From NCBI GenBank assembly GCA_963965975.1, contig OZ014422.1, positions 1,116,001 through 1,180,000 of the forward strand: a stretch of 64,000 nucleotides of DNA, written 5' to 3'. Under the pieces are notes generated by a model. That model searched no databases and was not told the origin of the DNA. It saw nothing but the letters and a program-made list of their open reading frames with translations. How positions within the stretch are numbered: position 1 is the stretch's first letter; each line of letters starts with the position of its first letter. Shown here in pieces: positions 25,330 to 64,000 of this stretch. Both the position numbers and the translations under genes were made by a program. The stretch comes from Xestospongia bergquistia (Eukaryota > Porifera > Demospongiae > Haplosclerida > Petrosiidae).

Positions 25330-27685
25330 ATGATAGAACAATATAACAGTCACTGGTCACTGATCTTTCTTTTACTGTTGTATACAATCAAGTCAAGTAA
25401 GTCCAGAAATAATGTTAATAGAATTATAACATTTAATATATGTAGGCTATGTTGAACCTGCTGACTGTACAGAGAGGTTCATGGACTTTGACTTGATTAA
25501 ATATAGAGCAAAGATAGTAGGTATCAGTAAAAAGGGGTATAGTTTAAGTAATGAAATCAGACTCCTCACAGAATATCAGTTTAACTGTTCATCAACAAAT
25601 ATTACCAATGTTATTGTGGGAGGTGACCTTAGGACACCAAATAATGATCATCAGTTATTTCCTAGTCTTCAAATATGGAGACCTGTACCTAATCGACATA
25701 TTCAATATTATCATGTTCCAGACAGTGAGAGAACTATATACTATTCAACTAATAATGTCAGTACTAATGGAGTGTTTGAATATCCTCTGGATCCACCTAT
25801 ATCAGTACAAAGTGGAGATATATTAGCTATATCACAACCTTCTCAAGGGGACAGTATTTTTAGAGTTTATTACATACAAGATGTTGTTAATTTTGATAGT
25901 TATAAAGTCTCATTTGGTTCAATGGAGGAATTTTTATCTGGTAGTCCAATTAATAATGATTTGGTATTAGTCTATCCTATAACTGGTGAGTTATATCATA
26001 TATACTAAACTATTGTGATCTGTTATGTCATTAGATGGAGCTTGTGTTAGCAGTTCAATAAATGCTACACTCATCAAGGAGAATGCTCTACTGATACATG
26101 AAGTTAGACAGGCAGAACAAAGAAGACAGTATATATATCCAGAGATGAAGTTCTCATGTAATGGTAGTGTTACAAAATGGATCTATGGAGCTGTAGATCA
26201 AAACAGATCTACAGGAGACTTACCTGAACTGCAAATATGGCGTCAAACTGGTCCTAATAGTTACAATAAACAAGGATCTAGTTTAGTTACTGCTAATATA
26301 TCAATAGCTCCTAATGTCTATGAGTATTATCCTGTGATACCACTAGAGTTCCAAGAGGGAGATATATTTGGTGTTCATATACCTGATAATAATAATAGTC
26401 AACTATATCTATATGAACAAAGAGAGAGTGGACCACTTAATGTACATATTAATAGTGAAGTAAATTCACTTGCTCCTTCAACAATAAATGAAATACTTAC
26501 AACAGATGAGGCTAATAATTTTCCTCTAGTCACAGTCATAATAAGTATGTTAATATAATGTGTAATACTATTATCACTTCTTACAAATATAGGTATTAAT
26601 ACAGAGATAGTATTAACAACCATCTCTTCTACTATAGAGATATGTAGTGTGGCTACAACAGGTGTGTGTTTATATTGTCTAATATAATTACTATTGTCAC
26701 TTTATATAATTAAATTAGAATAAACAGATTAGTATATTATTAATAGTTACAATAAACAAGGATCTAGTTTAGTTACTGCTAATATATCAATAGCTCCTAA
26801 TGTCATTATCCTGTGACACCACTGCAGTTACAAGAGAGAGATATATTTGTTGTTCTTATCCCACTAAATTCATCTAGACAAATAAGTTTATATAAACAAA
26901 ACGAGAGTATACTACTGAATTTAAGCATAGATTTCAATGTAGATTCAACAATAATGGTCACTTCAGACCTTACAACAAAGACATCTAACAATGTTCCTCA
27001 AGTAACACTCTTAATAAGTAAGTATCATTTATTATCAGTTATTTATTATAACTATATACTGGGTAGGTACTAGTCATCCCTTGACGTCACTTCCTACTTT
27101 AAGTTCTACAGTCACTACTTCAAGTGTTCTGCCATTTGTATCTTTGTCTACATCTTCCTCACTTCCTACATTAAGTTCTACAGTCACTATGGCACTCTCT
27201 AGCTCACCTTCCATTCTTGGAGATTACAGTCCAGTAATAATTCCAATCATTTTTGGAGTCGTGTGTTTTGTTATAGTTCTATTAACAATTACATTGATCA
27301 TTATCACTTTATTGTTAATTTGTCAAAGGTATGATATGTTAATATTTAAACTTGAATCAGAATATCTCATAATAAAATACCATTGATTGTAATATTTAAT
27401 ATTACCACTTATCATTATAATAGTAATTATTCCATTCATTATTATAATACTGGTGTGTATTTTACTAGATACAAGAATACAGTATCACTATATGATGATG
27501 TCATCAATACAAAGGTTGATCCTGTCATGTCAACAAATTCTTCATATGTACCTAATATTACTGATAATGATGACTTTGATGGTATATATATGGATATTAA
27601 TAACTCATATAAGACTGTTCCACCACCAACTATTAATATTAATGAGAATCCTGCTTATGGAAAATTTGATTATGATTACATTTAA
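25330..27685 (+). CDS. Receptor unit 1: kinase-less transmembrane receptor with NPAY tail
   Basis: Six exons join in phase: 25330-25396 (signal peptide, hydrophobic [11 protein letters not shown]), 25446-25985 (D1), 26035-26544 (D2), 26593-26661, 27066-27327 (stalk and transmembrane) and 27469-27685 (tail). The product is 554 aa. D1 and D2 are related to each other; each has an F-x-C-(S/N) element, a QIWR element, a Y-rich strand and a PL…(V/F)Q.GDI element. The stalk is Ser/Thr-rich (likely O-glycosylated). The helix is [20 protein letters not shown] and on. The cytoplasmic tail has tyrosines in YDDV, YVPN, YMDI and YKTV plus NPAY, and ends in FDYDYI; there is no kinase. NPxY motifs bind PTB domains or drive endocytosis. 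D1 loop 1 (VPNRHIQYYHVPD) and loop 2 (KVSFGSMEEF) are unlike the other units. Confidence 0.8.
26742..27017 (+). pseudogene. Relic third ectodomain (D3) in unit 1
   Basis: A D2-like stretch starts at [21 protein letters not shown] small deletion then shifts the frame, and the sequence continues as YPVTPLQLQERDIFVVLIP and further to a preserved splice donor (ataa|gtaagt). The 5' half of the domain is missing. It falls in the intron between exon 4 and the stalk exon. Parallel relics lie at about 29872-30190, 35997-36312, 49597-49886, 53402-53689 and 60520-60808. Confidence 0.75.
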
Positions 27686-28309
27686 GATAACATAACACTA
27701 TAGTCATTTCCACATACACTCTATATTGTATAGTTTATATAATAATTATGTATTGTTTAATAATTTATTAATACTAGTTATGTTATAATTAATATCTAAT
27801 AAAGACTTAAGTCATACTCATAACAAAATTAAATAGAGACAGTCATGACGCTTGTAGAGAACTGAATTAAACCTTCTATAAAGTAACTAGTTGAGTTATA
27901 TGTAGCAATTGCAGTTAATGTTACTTGGAAGTAGTGTGTCTGATATGAAAAGACACATCATCATTTTAAACAATCATAGGCAGTTCTTTATACAATATAT
28001 TCTTGTACTCAATTTCACAGATCTCTCTACAATGCTCTAATTTATAATGACACTATGATAGTAAGTTTGGAGTAGACTTTGTGACAATCATTTCTTTGTA
28101 TGAGAATTAAATATCTAGAAATAACAAAATATTGAATATTTTTAGTTGTTCTTGTCATCTTCCTATTGTTAATTTGTTTACAGTAACAGAAGCTATTACA
28201 GCAATGTACTGAGAGGTTTATGGAGTTAGTATTATTGAACTTTATTATAATAATGAGAATAGACTTGATTAGAGTTGATACTAATTTATTTCGTTTTAAT
28301 TTTAAAAAA
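27686..28309. other. 3' flank of unit 1 and spacer
   Basis: Contains the probable 3' UTR with the poly(A)-like aataaag at about 27798. It also holds a spacer conserved after other short-tail units (caatttcacagatctctcta, then ctatgatagtaagtttgg, then ttgttcttgtcatcttccta). No intact gene is visible. Confidence 0.5.
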
Positions 28310-28459
28310 TACAACTGACAGTTATAAAATATTATAAAGAATGAATAGCAATTACTTTAATATCATAACTGTCAGTTGTAGTTCTTTTAATTATGTTCAT
28401 TATCATTTTGACATTTTAAAGTGTTCCACTGATAATTACCTCATGTTAGTAGAGAAGAT
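28310..28459 (+). promoter_or_regulatory. Conserved upstream block of receptor unit 2
   Basis: Contains aactgacagttata, later aactgtcagttgtagttctt, ttttgacattttaaagtgtt, ccactgataattacctcatg and ttagtagagaagat before the ATG. These elements keep the same order and spacing as in units 3, 4 and 12. Confidence 0.55.
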
Positions 28460-62100: not shown

Positions 62101-63660
62101 TTATCATAGTAATATTATAATAACATTTATTATTATTGTATAGGAGGAGAGAGCTCAACTTGTAGACAATGGACAGACTAATAATGATGGTAGATCTGTT
62201 TATGACAAATTAATACACTTACAAGTAATACTGTTTATTATATGATAATGGAGTCAATGTAATTGACACAGAAATCTTCACTACAAGATACAGATGTACG
62301 TTTTTCAAATTACTGGGAACCTGGATCTGATATTAACAATATTTATCAACAGCTGTCATCTAACAAATATCGAGAGATATTATGCCAGCAAATTGAGTGA
62401 GTTACTAACAACAGTATTGTTGGGAAATTAGAGTTTACTATTTATAGAATTACTGGTGAATTAGGATCTGGACAATTTGGTATTGTTGCTAAAGGAAAAT
62501 GGCAGTCTATGGATGTTGCTATTAAAACTTTGAAAGATGATGCTTCAGAGGAAGAGAAAGTCAAGTTCCTACAAGAGGCAGCCATTATGGGTCAATTTCA
62601 TCATCCTAATATTGTTAAGTTATATGGAGTGGTCACTATTGGAGAACCAGTGAGATACTACCAAAAAATTATATTTAATTAATATATTTTAATTAGATAA
62701 TGATAATACTGGAGCTAGTATCTAATGGAGACTTGAGAGAGTATCTACAAAAATTCCAACCTTCGTAAGTTTAATATCAAATATATAATCTATTTAATTT
62801 TAATATCATTACTTACAGACCAGGAAAGTTAGTTCACTCTACACTACCTACTCTCCTACTCAGTTTTTGTCGTCAGATTGCCTCAGGTATGGAGTACCTG
62901 TCAAAGAAATGTTTTATACACAGAGACCTGGCAGCTAGGAATATACTAGTGACTGAACAGGGTATTTGTAAGGTATGATATAGTTGTAAATATAAGTAGA
63001 GTGGATTTATTGTTTTGTGTACAGATTGCAGACTTTGGTATGTCCAGAGATTTACAAGATGAGAACTATTATATCTCACATGCTAAGAAAATTCCCATTA
63101 AATGGACATCTCCTGAAGTCAGTAATGTTATGTATCAGTTATATTGTAAACTGTATAACTACAGGCCTTACATTTCAAACAATACTCCACTGCTAGTGAT
63201 GTGTGGAGTTTTGGTGTAGTACTCTATGAGATATGGAGTCTAGGACATAAACCATTTGAGAATTATACCAATCAAGAGGTAAAATATAAAGTATATAATG
63301 AGTAATTATATGAGATGATTTTAGTGTATGAGATTAATAGATTCTGGTTATCGTCTTCCTCCTCCTCCTGGTTGTCCCAGACCTATCTATAAGATGATGA
63401 TACAATGTTGGTAAGAGTGTGTATATTGTACTAGTACTACTTGATAATGTGTGTACATCAATGACAGGCATCCAGAGACTTCTAGTCGTCCTACATTTGT
63501 CAAGTTGGTATCAGATCTATTTCAAGTTGATGTTAAACTCCTCAGTAGTCCATTGTCTAATGAAGACAAGACCTGTAATCCAGAGAGTCCAGTACTTGGA
63601 GGTCCACTAGATACTGGACACAACCTTTATATAGATTTACAGAGAATGTATCACTGTTGA
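59113..63660 (+). CDS. Receptor unit 12: complete receptor tyrosine kinase, diverged kinase hinge
   Basis: Exons 59113-59179, 59229-59771, 59821-60330, 60379-60438, 60848-61312, 61707-61858, 61904-61960, 62013-62093, 62144-62224, 62272-62396, 62448-62649, 62697-62764, 62819-62972, 63025-63117, 63165-63278, 63325-63410 and 63468-63660 join in phase to 1016 aa. D1 is one residue longer than in other units, with loop 1 [15 protein letters not shown] and loop 2 [10 protein letters not shown]. The stalk exon (465 nt) is a hybrid: its first half resembles the long stalk of unit 3 and its second half the RTK stalk and helix. The kinase is complete ([38 protein letters not shown]). The segment after the hinge ([20 protein letters not shown]) differs from units 4, 9 and 10, so this unit, or that exon pair, comes from another lineage. 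Confidence 0.88.
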
Positions 63661-63689
63661 CAACCTGACATAAAAGCAATTCTATTTAT

Positions 63690-64000
63690 TCTTAAGACAG
63701 ATGTCCATAATTTTTGTATAATTGTCAGTTGTAGTTTTAATTATATATATAACACTTCAAATTATTCTTCTGATAATTACTTCATGTTAGTAGAAATTCA
63801 ATGAACAAACTGTAACAGTCATTTGTCAGTGATTAGTCCAGAAATAATGTGAATTGAATTATAAAATTTAATATGTTTAGTGTTTGCTGAGCCTGTTGAC
63901 TGTACAGAGACGTTTATGGACTTTGACTTGATTAAATAGATTCTGATTAGAGCAATGACACTAGGCATTAGTGAAAATGACAATAATTTAAGTAATGAAA
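63690..64000 (+). pseudogene. Receptor unit 13: decayed start of a further unit (runs off window)
   Basis: The upstream block is recognisable (cagatgtccataat, gtcagttgtag) but the signal exon is mostly deleted (gtaacagtcatttgtcagtg joined to attagtccagaaataatg). D1 starts with [13 protein letters not shown], then an inserted agattctgatt introduces a stop before LGISENDNNLSNE. A pseudogene at least at its 5' end. Confidence 0.8.

Follow-up and report, generated by a model that had tools for sequence, protein, structure and literature searches.

The vertebrate families KIR, LILR, SIRP and PILR are paired receptors, encoded in tandem arrays whose members have near-identical ectodomains and alternative cytoplasmic ends, with gene conversion and frequent pseudogenes. 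Here we describe an array with the same features in the sponge Xestospongia bergquistia (assembly GCA_963965975.1), in which one type of ectodomain, composed of two domains that we call D1 and D2, precedes a tyrosine kinase in some genes and a short tail with no kinase in others. It lies in the 64,000-nucleotide stretch analysed, hereafter the window (positions 1,116,001 to 1,180,000 of contig OZ014422.1, here C12). Unlike the vertebrate families, the array has an ectodomain with no Pfam or Ig match, and one of its outputs is a covalently attached tyrosine kinase, whereas theirs depends on a charged transmembrane residue and an adaptor.

From the sponge Geodia, the proteins GCSAML and GCSAMS are reportedly kinase-less adhesion relatives of a receptor tyrosine kinase (RTK), with which they are said to have a two-domain ectodomain in common; our literature search retrieved no sponge paper on them. 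The likeness to our array would thus be an RTK accompanied by kinase-less proteins with the same kind of ectodomain, but the Geodia ectodomains are Ig-like, and D1 and D2 match nothing in Pfam or, by sequence, in PDB. The available parts of the sources mention an Ig-like domain in the RTK of Geodia cydonium (PMC12018476) and a Geodia Ig-like adhesion molecule (PMC11999971). Amphimedon queenslandica, with 150 RTK genes (PMC3584944), is alike in having many RTKs and unlike in that the accessible text makes no mention of kinase-less partners or of tail exchange. The Alr family of Hydractinia, with 41 genes in the allorecognition complex (PMC11999971), is comparable as a cluster of diverse recognition genes from an early animal, but the source, as far as it is accessible, describes Ig-superfamily ectodomains and no kinase-bearing members. 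Our literature search, which also drew on parts of PMC8242945, PMC6485061, PMC8662651 and PMC5793068, returned no report of kinase-less partners in sponge RTK arrays; it covered the subscription literature thinly, and absence is unproven.

One ectodomain type, two cytoplasmic outputs

Genes of the array consist of a signal exon, D1, D2, a Ser/Thr-rich stalk and a transmembrane segment, followed either by a kinase module (juxtamembrane region and tyrosine kinase, exons 6-17) or by a tail of about 70 residues. An initial annotation of this DNA had proposed about 13 head-to-tail units, and 13 is the number that we count in the window, all on the + strand; its unit numbers match ours well and are kept here (u, unit; K, kinase gene; S, short-tail gene; Table 1). 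The array extends to approximately C12:1,206,000, about 26 kb beyond the window end, with further K and S genes, and the 28 kb of sequence analysed past the window hold u14 to u20. The signal exon, D1, D2 and stalk that the units were said to share do make up a common ectodomain type, but the units are not uniformly complete: the signal exon is present in 11 of 13 (u10 and u13 lack it), D1 is open and of full length in eight (u1, u2, u3, u4, u7, u9, u10 and u12), and D2 in the same units except u7.

Nine units, of which three lie beyond the window, were compared over approximately 1.2 kb from the ATG through exon 3; of the 36 pairs, the top 16 are 93.0-97.2% identical, so that a chance origin of the array is excluded. 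The closest pair is u2 (tail) and u4 (kinase) (97.2%), and u1 (tail) and u14 (kinase) are among the closest (95.8%). In steps of 100 nucleotides, u2 and u4 are 93-100% identical from -50 to +1950 relative to the ATG and 88% identical in the next block, after which identity falls to 36-51%. This break lies directly after the transmembrane segment, where the kinase units read through and u1 and u2 carry a splice donor. Like paired receptors, therefore, u2 and u4 have near-identical ectodomains and different cytoplasmic ends, and they offer a clean natural experiment, with outsides 97% identical, insides unrelated and 6 kb between them. In the 120 nucleotides upstream of the ATG, eight other units are 74-94% identical to u4 (aligned columns; up to 26 gap columns).

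The same mixing is seen across the whole family. Nine K and eight S genes, placed in a D1 tree, show seven changes of tail type, against a mean of 6.0 with shuffled labels (469 of 500 shuffles being as low), and a D2 tree of 16 genes holds six, against 5.5; because these changes are no fewer than with shuffled labels, tail type is unlinked to the ectodomain. The labelled genes include four broken units (u7, u9, u10 and u16), and support is weak at several forks; the supported mixed pairs are u1S with u14K and u18S with C12cK in the D1 tree, and u2S with u4K and u17S with C12cK in the D2 tree. Since near-identical ectodomains carry different modules, tail and kinase modules have been exchanged between ectodomains, and the initial claim of one ectodomain type with two outputs is supported.

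The kinase module and the short tail

The kinase genes encode RTKs, with a signal sequence and a transmembrane segment that can be read directly from the sequence. In u12 the kinase matches Pfam PF07714 over residues 714-970, and the catalytic motifs are readable in u4, u10, u12, u14 and a gene on contig C1. Among the best 60 matches of the u12 kinase to 1015 PDB sequences, an EGFR entry comes top, followed mostly by Eph and then by Btk and Fes; neither Pfam nor the PDB sequence search found an ectodomain typical of a named RTK family such as Eph or EGFR. The pooled ratio of nonsynonymous to synonymous change (dN/dS) is 0.30 in kinase exons 11-17 (5 genes, 10 pairs) and 0.58 in juxtamembrane exons 6-10. 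Searched against the genome (146,460,797 bases, 21 contigs), kinase exon 13 gives 88 matches, 24 of them at least 76% identical, and 20 of these 24 are on C12. Other tyrosine kinase clusters occur at C6:1.62-1.70 Mb and C11:5.92-6.07 Mb, where the kinase domains are mostly one intronless open frame.

The tails of u1, u2 and u3 are open and carry YDDV, SYVP, YMDI or YMEI, and NPAY. They come in two arrangements: in form A (u1, u2) a transmembrane exon of the kinase type is spliced to the tail exon, and in form B (u3, u7, u15, u16) a different transmembrane segment is continuous with the tail. A search for this tail lists 23 matches at E <= 10, of which 16 reach E <= 0.001, at C12:1.14-1.21 Mb, C12:2.68 Mb and C1:10.18-10.37 Mb. 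On C1, two pairs of matches are apparently fragments of single copies. Pooled dN/dS among nine such tails, which we call first-form tails, is 0.59 (36 pairs). NPAY and the terminal DYI are retained in all nine and SLYDDV in six, its tyrosine being missing from u17b, u18 and the copy at C12:2.68 Mb.

Related tails, here called sister tails, end kinase-less receptors on C4 (L067) and near C12:500k (L073), whose D1 and D2 are only about 30% identical to those of the array. In the six comparisons of the u1, u3 and C12:2.68 Mb tails with these two, z was 4.6-10.3 and 0 of 300 shuffles did as well; the u18 tail gave a weaker result (3 and 13 of 300). Because homologous tails occur with ectodomains so different from those of the array, the short tail is an old module. 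Tyr40, Asn60, Tyr63 and the three residues of the C-terminal DYI, six columns in all, are the same in each of 10 aligned tails. A search with the sister tail gave 26 matches at E <= 0.1, of which 17 are of full length at E <= 1e-20, none with a stop. The ectodomain was read for two of the 17 (L067 and L073) and is of the D1/D2 type in both; in a third such D1/D2 gene (L072) the sister-tail match falls just beyond the stretch of sequence taken, and a genome search with D1/D2 gave none at C12:601-611k among the matches listed. In L067 and L072 another transmembrane/juxtamembrane exon, with NPVYE or NPIYE, sits before the tail. NPSY is retained in 16 of 17 sister tails.

Derivation of the short tail from the juxtamembrane region of the kinase is not supported (z at most 1.8 for six of six short tails), and the kinase-less tails of u20 and of a receptor on C8 are mostly unsupported as its homologues, the best values being z 3.4 for C12:2.68 Mb against u20 (2 of 300 shuffles) and z 2.8 for u18 against C8 (5 of 300). 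The C8 gene (L068, C8:6525200-6527700) is a distant D1-D2 receptor, with an ectodomain at 31-40% identity, its own tail with NPSYN, SEIYETV and NNPSYVSI, and no kinase nearby among the matches listed.

A variable ectodomain with no family match by sequence

D1 and D2 are related to each other (15-29% identity) and have the patterns C...F.C.G, P.LQIWR and GD.L...QP in common. Outside the kinase, the ectodomains of u1 and u12 gave no Pfam match above cut-off; among 31 D1/D2 members the best Pfam match had E 0.062 and was not Ig, and against PDB nothing was found by sequence, a profile giving only E 0.27 and 0.75.

Two patches of D1 vary strongly among the units, irrespective of tail type. Amino-acid variants cluster in D1 (12-column windows, 5000 permutations, p = 2e-4) and in D2 (p = 0.037). 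Pooled dN/dS in D1 is 1.29 (11 units; the pairs are not independent), and the alignment windows 81-100, 151-170 and 161-180, with dN/dS of 3.2, 2.9 and 3.2, have the highest nonsynonymous divergence in the domain (pN 0.37, 0.25 and 0.28). Minimum-change counts give 83 nonsynonymous and 10 synonymous changes in the patches (ratio 2.1) and 74 and 21 in the rest of D1 (0.94). Patch 1 is identical in u2S and u4K, and patch 2 in u1S and u14K. The introns beside D1 differ on average by 1.6 and 1.9% (10 units; largest pair 6%), whereas D1 synonymous sites differ by 8%; besides selection, gene conversion has therefore probably acted, both by import and by homogenisation.

A proposed recognition role with two interchangeable outputs, and its alternatives

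Our preferred reading, to which we give a probability of about one half, is that the array encodes a family of recognition receptors with two interchangeable cytoplasmic outputs, the tail members acting as docking co-receptors. A role in recognition had been proposed in the initial annotation, and the focusing of diversity in two patches of D1, which recognition receptors would be expected to show, supports it. The patches would form the surface that contacts a ligand or self; ligand binding would bring kinase and tail members together in clusters when their ectodomains are the same or similar; the kinase member would phosphorylate its partner's tail at the recurring tyrosines of SLYDDV, NPSYV, YMDI, NPAY and DYI; and the phosphorylated tail would recruit adaptors with SH2 or PTB domains, so that short-tail members would tune or redirect the kinase signal. 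For recognition we draw on the patches, and for trans-phosphorylation and docking on the kinase motifs, the recurrence of tyrosines in the tails and the PTB (PID) domains that the genome contains (6 matches). More tentatively, the family may be one of paired recognition receptors, an RTK member with a tyrosine-tailed partner, whose hypervariable surface on an unrecognised fold has passed from one output to the other through recombination across several clusters; such receptors possibly serve self/non-self or microbe recognition. If so, the paired-receptor layout would have evolved independently in an early-branching animal, directly upon RTKs, which would provide a concrete candidate for sponge recognition molecules and a possible reason for the high RTK numbers in sponges.

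Several observations weigh against this reading: (i) The patch count test is modest (binomial p = 0.012, with patches picked after inspection), and values above 1 also occur in D1 away from the patches, in windows with few synonymous changes (1-20, 3.4; 121-140, 1.9; 51-70, none synonymous), and in some windows of D2 (0.83 pooled; single windows reach 2.0 or have no synonymous change). (ii) Synonymous divergence is elevated in the patches too, and segments imported by gene conversion from diverged copies may thus explain part of the signal. (iii) The matched pairs are not matched throughout, since patch 2 differs between u2S and u4K and patch 1 between u1S and u14K. (iv) Pairwise dN/dS among first-form tails spreads from 0.36 to 1.62, and the 17 sister tails show no purifying selection, with pN 0.055 above pS 0.022 (pooled 2.5, with little synonymous change); in these tails NPAY has another residue for its proline (NITY, NIAY), and four of 17 have Met instead of the final Ile. 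(v) Deletions, frameshifts or stops have broken eight of the 13 units in the window, and many members are thus non-functional.

Instead of docking partners, the tail members might be decoys that bind the same ligand and damp the kinase members, with a tail that serves trafficking. NPxY is an endocytosis motif and a C-terminal DYI is a PDZ-type ligand; both are kept in every first-form tail, and matched ectodomains do exist with and without a kinase. The other recurring tyrosines, in YMDI-like and SYV-like motifs, nevertheless exceed what trafficking needs, and we consider this alternative rather unlikely. Another proposal borrows from the vertebrate paired receptors, in which tails with immunoreceptor tyrosine-based inhibitory motifs (ITIM, [S/I/V/L]xYxx[I/V/L]) recruit SH2 phosphatases: here, tails with ITIM-like motifs would oppose the kinase members. 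SLYDDV in most first-form tails and ITY or IAY followed by (E/G)Q(L/V) in sister tails, as in NITYEQL, speak for it, but the loss of the SLYDDV tyrosine from a third of the first-form tails makes it doubtful.

It seems improbable that the short-tail genes are functionless by-products of unequal crossing over, left by a process of birth and death. Such noise would agree with the broken units and with the absence of visible purifying selection on the sister tails, but open, spliceable short-tail genes recur within and beyond the array, the homologous tails elsewhere on C12 and on C4 are free of stops in all 17 full-length matches, and the pooled dN/dS of the first-form tails lies well below 1. 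That tail and kinase are alternative 3' ends of one gene is hardly credible. The layout of u15, followed by kinase exons 10-17, and of u5, u7 and u11, followed by exons 16-17, would allow it; in u1-u3, however, no kinase exon (E < 0.01) lies between the tail and the next signal exon, and the isoform reading is rejected for these units. The kinase piece behind u15 has no exons 5-9 and begins inside exon 10, satellite DNA occupying the place of the missing part, and as a truncated relic it is rejected as support; no tail exon was found within u4, u12 or u14, where the best scores are at chance level. In u1-u3 the tail stop is followed by AATAAA at 86-112 nucleotides (112 in u1), and judged by the DNA alone their short tails are not 5' pieces of kinase transcripts. 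The satellite, with a repeat unit of slightly under 60 bases by eye, spans approximately C12:1189800-1191260.

Gene models and damaged units

Exon borders were transferred from u12 to the other units, exons 4 and 5, which have short and long forms, being matched to either reference. GT-AG borders hold fully in u4, u12 and u14, up to exon 14 in u9, from exon 2 in u10, and in one C1 gene; the exon 4 donor is absent from u10 and the C1 gene. The short-tail genes u2 and u15 also pass this check, as does u3 outside its stalk exons; u3 is counted as intact although its middle stalk exons are not fully resolved. The six exons of u1 encode, in order, signal, D1, D2, stalk, transmembrane segment and tail, the frame ending in NENPAYGKFDYDYI and a stop. 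The exon 10/11 intron of u12 is 51 nucleotides long, and an apparent stop in u9 and u10 falls inside this intron. The kinase gene u14 ends six residues before the others, past the kinase domain.

By open frames and splice sites, five of the 13 window units are intact (u1, u2 and u3 with a tail, u4 and u12 with a kinase). The initial annotation had given an output to eight units, a complete kinase to u4, u9, u10 and u12 and the tail to u1, u2, u3 and u7. This stands for u4 and u12 and for the open tails of u1-u3, but the assignments of u7 and u9 are wrong and u10 is incomplete because of the damage that they have suffered: besides its D2 frameshift, u7 has a tail that ends in GSNGNTTQ and a stop, short of YMEI and NPAY; exon 14 of u9 ends in WTAP and a stop (last residue at 52117), after the activation loop and at the junction with intron 1 of u10; and u10 has its kinase exons without the signal exon. 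The u9/u10 junction (52100-52170) may reflect a true deletion, or near-identical copies may have been collapsed in the assembly.

Table 1. Units of the array and related features. Plain positions refer to the window; the first coordinate is the start codon in u1-u9, u11 and u12, and the D1 exon in u10.
Feature	Position	Strand	Description
u1	25330..27685	+	intact short-tail receptor; open spliced frame, splice sites read by eye
u1 exons	25330-25396, 25446-25985, 26035-26544, 26593-26661, 27067-27328, 27469-27685	+	6 exons
u2	28460..30861	+	intact short-tail receptor, matched partner of u4; GT-AG at model borders
u3	31880..33987	+	short-tail receptor, form B; own transmembrane segment continuous with tail in exon 33410-33987
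u4	34584..39333	+	intact RTK, 17 exons; GT-AG; exons 4 and 5 by short-form references
u5	39502..42587	+	broken; D1 of 76 residues, degenerate tail, non-RTK insert, kinase exons 16-17
u6	42714..43620 (end approximate)	+	broken by a deletion fusion; frameshift in D1; D2 truncated at residue 62 and fused to kinase 3' end
u7	43771..47108	+	broken; D2 frameshift; truncated tail, frame end 45784; orphan kinase exons 16-17 at 46776-47105
u8	47280..47907	+	broken by a deletion fusion; D1 with stop, fused to tail fragment
u9	48187..52120	+	broken kinase gene; exons 1-14 followed by a stop, deletion of exons 15-17
u10	52166..56460	+	kinase gene with exons 2-17, signal exon absent; stop in the exon 4 copy, which has no donor
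u11	56629..58981	+	broken, u5-like layout; D1 of 76 residues, degenerate tail, insert, kinase exons 16-17
u12	59113..63660	+	intact RTK, 17 exons, 1016 residues; PF07714 E 1.2e-93
D1 hypervariable patch 1, u12 copy	59462..59518	+	19 residues; alignment columns 80-103
D1 hypervariable patch 2, u12 copy	59678..59731	+	18 residues; alignment columns 158-175
u13	63880..64000, extends past window	+	start of D1 remnant with in-frame stop
u14	beyond window		kinase gene
u15	beyond window		short tail, then 5'-truncated kinase 3' part behind satellite DNA
u16	beyond window		short tail; stop within D2
u17	beyond window		short tail, then second transmembrane and tail copy
u18	beyond window		short tail, diverged; keeps YADI, NPAY, DDYI
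u19	beyond window		broken
u20	beyond window		divergent D1/D2; different kinase-less tyrosine-rich tail with NPLYYG
Full-length sister tails	C12:494-504k		five
Full-length sister tails	C12:601-611k		four
Full-length sister tails	C12:685-700k		five
Full-length sister tail	C12:757k		one
Full-length sister tails	C4:5.33 Mb (5333k, 5337k)		two

Other observations

Degenerate partial copies of D2 lie between exons 4 and 5 of u1, u2, u4, u9, u10, u12 and u14 (for example at 26745-27016 and 60487-60687), and the ectodomain may therefore once have had a third domain. Degenerate 5' pieces of D1, seen by eye 3' of short-tail genes (28190-28260, 31600-31690), are probably relics of older units. The insert of u5 (41109-41489) looks like a reverse transcriptase by eye and has no Pfam match at E 0.01. 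Elsewhere in the window, the - strand holds a 324-residue open frame (22844-23818), with no Pfam match at E 0.01, and a pyridoxamine 5'-phosphate oxidase-like gene (5801-6469; PF01243, E 8.1e-16).

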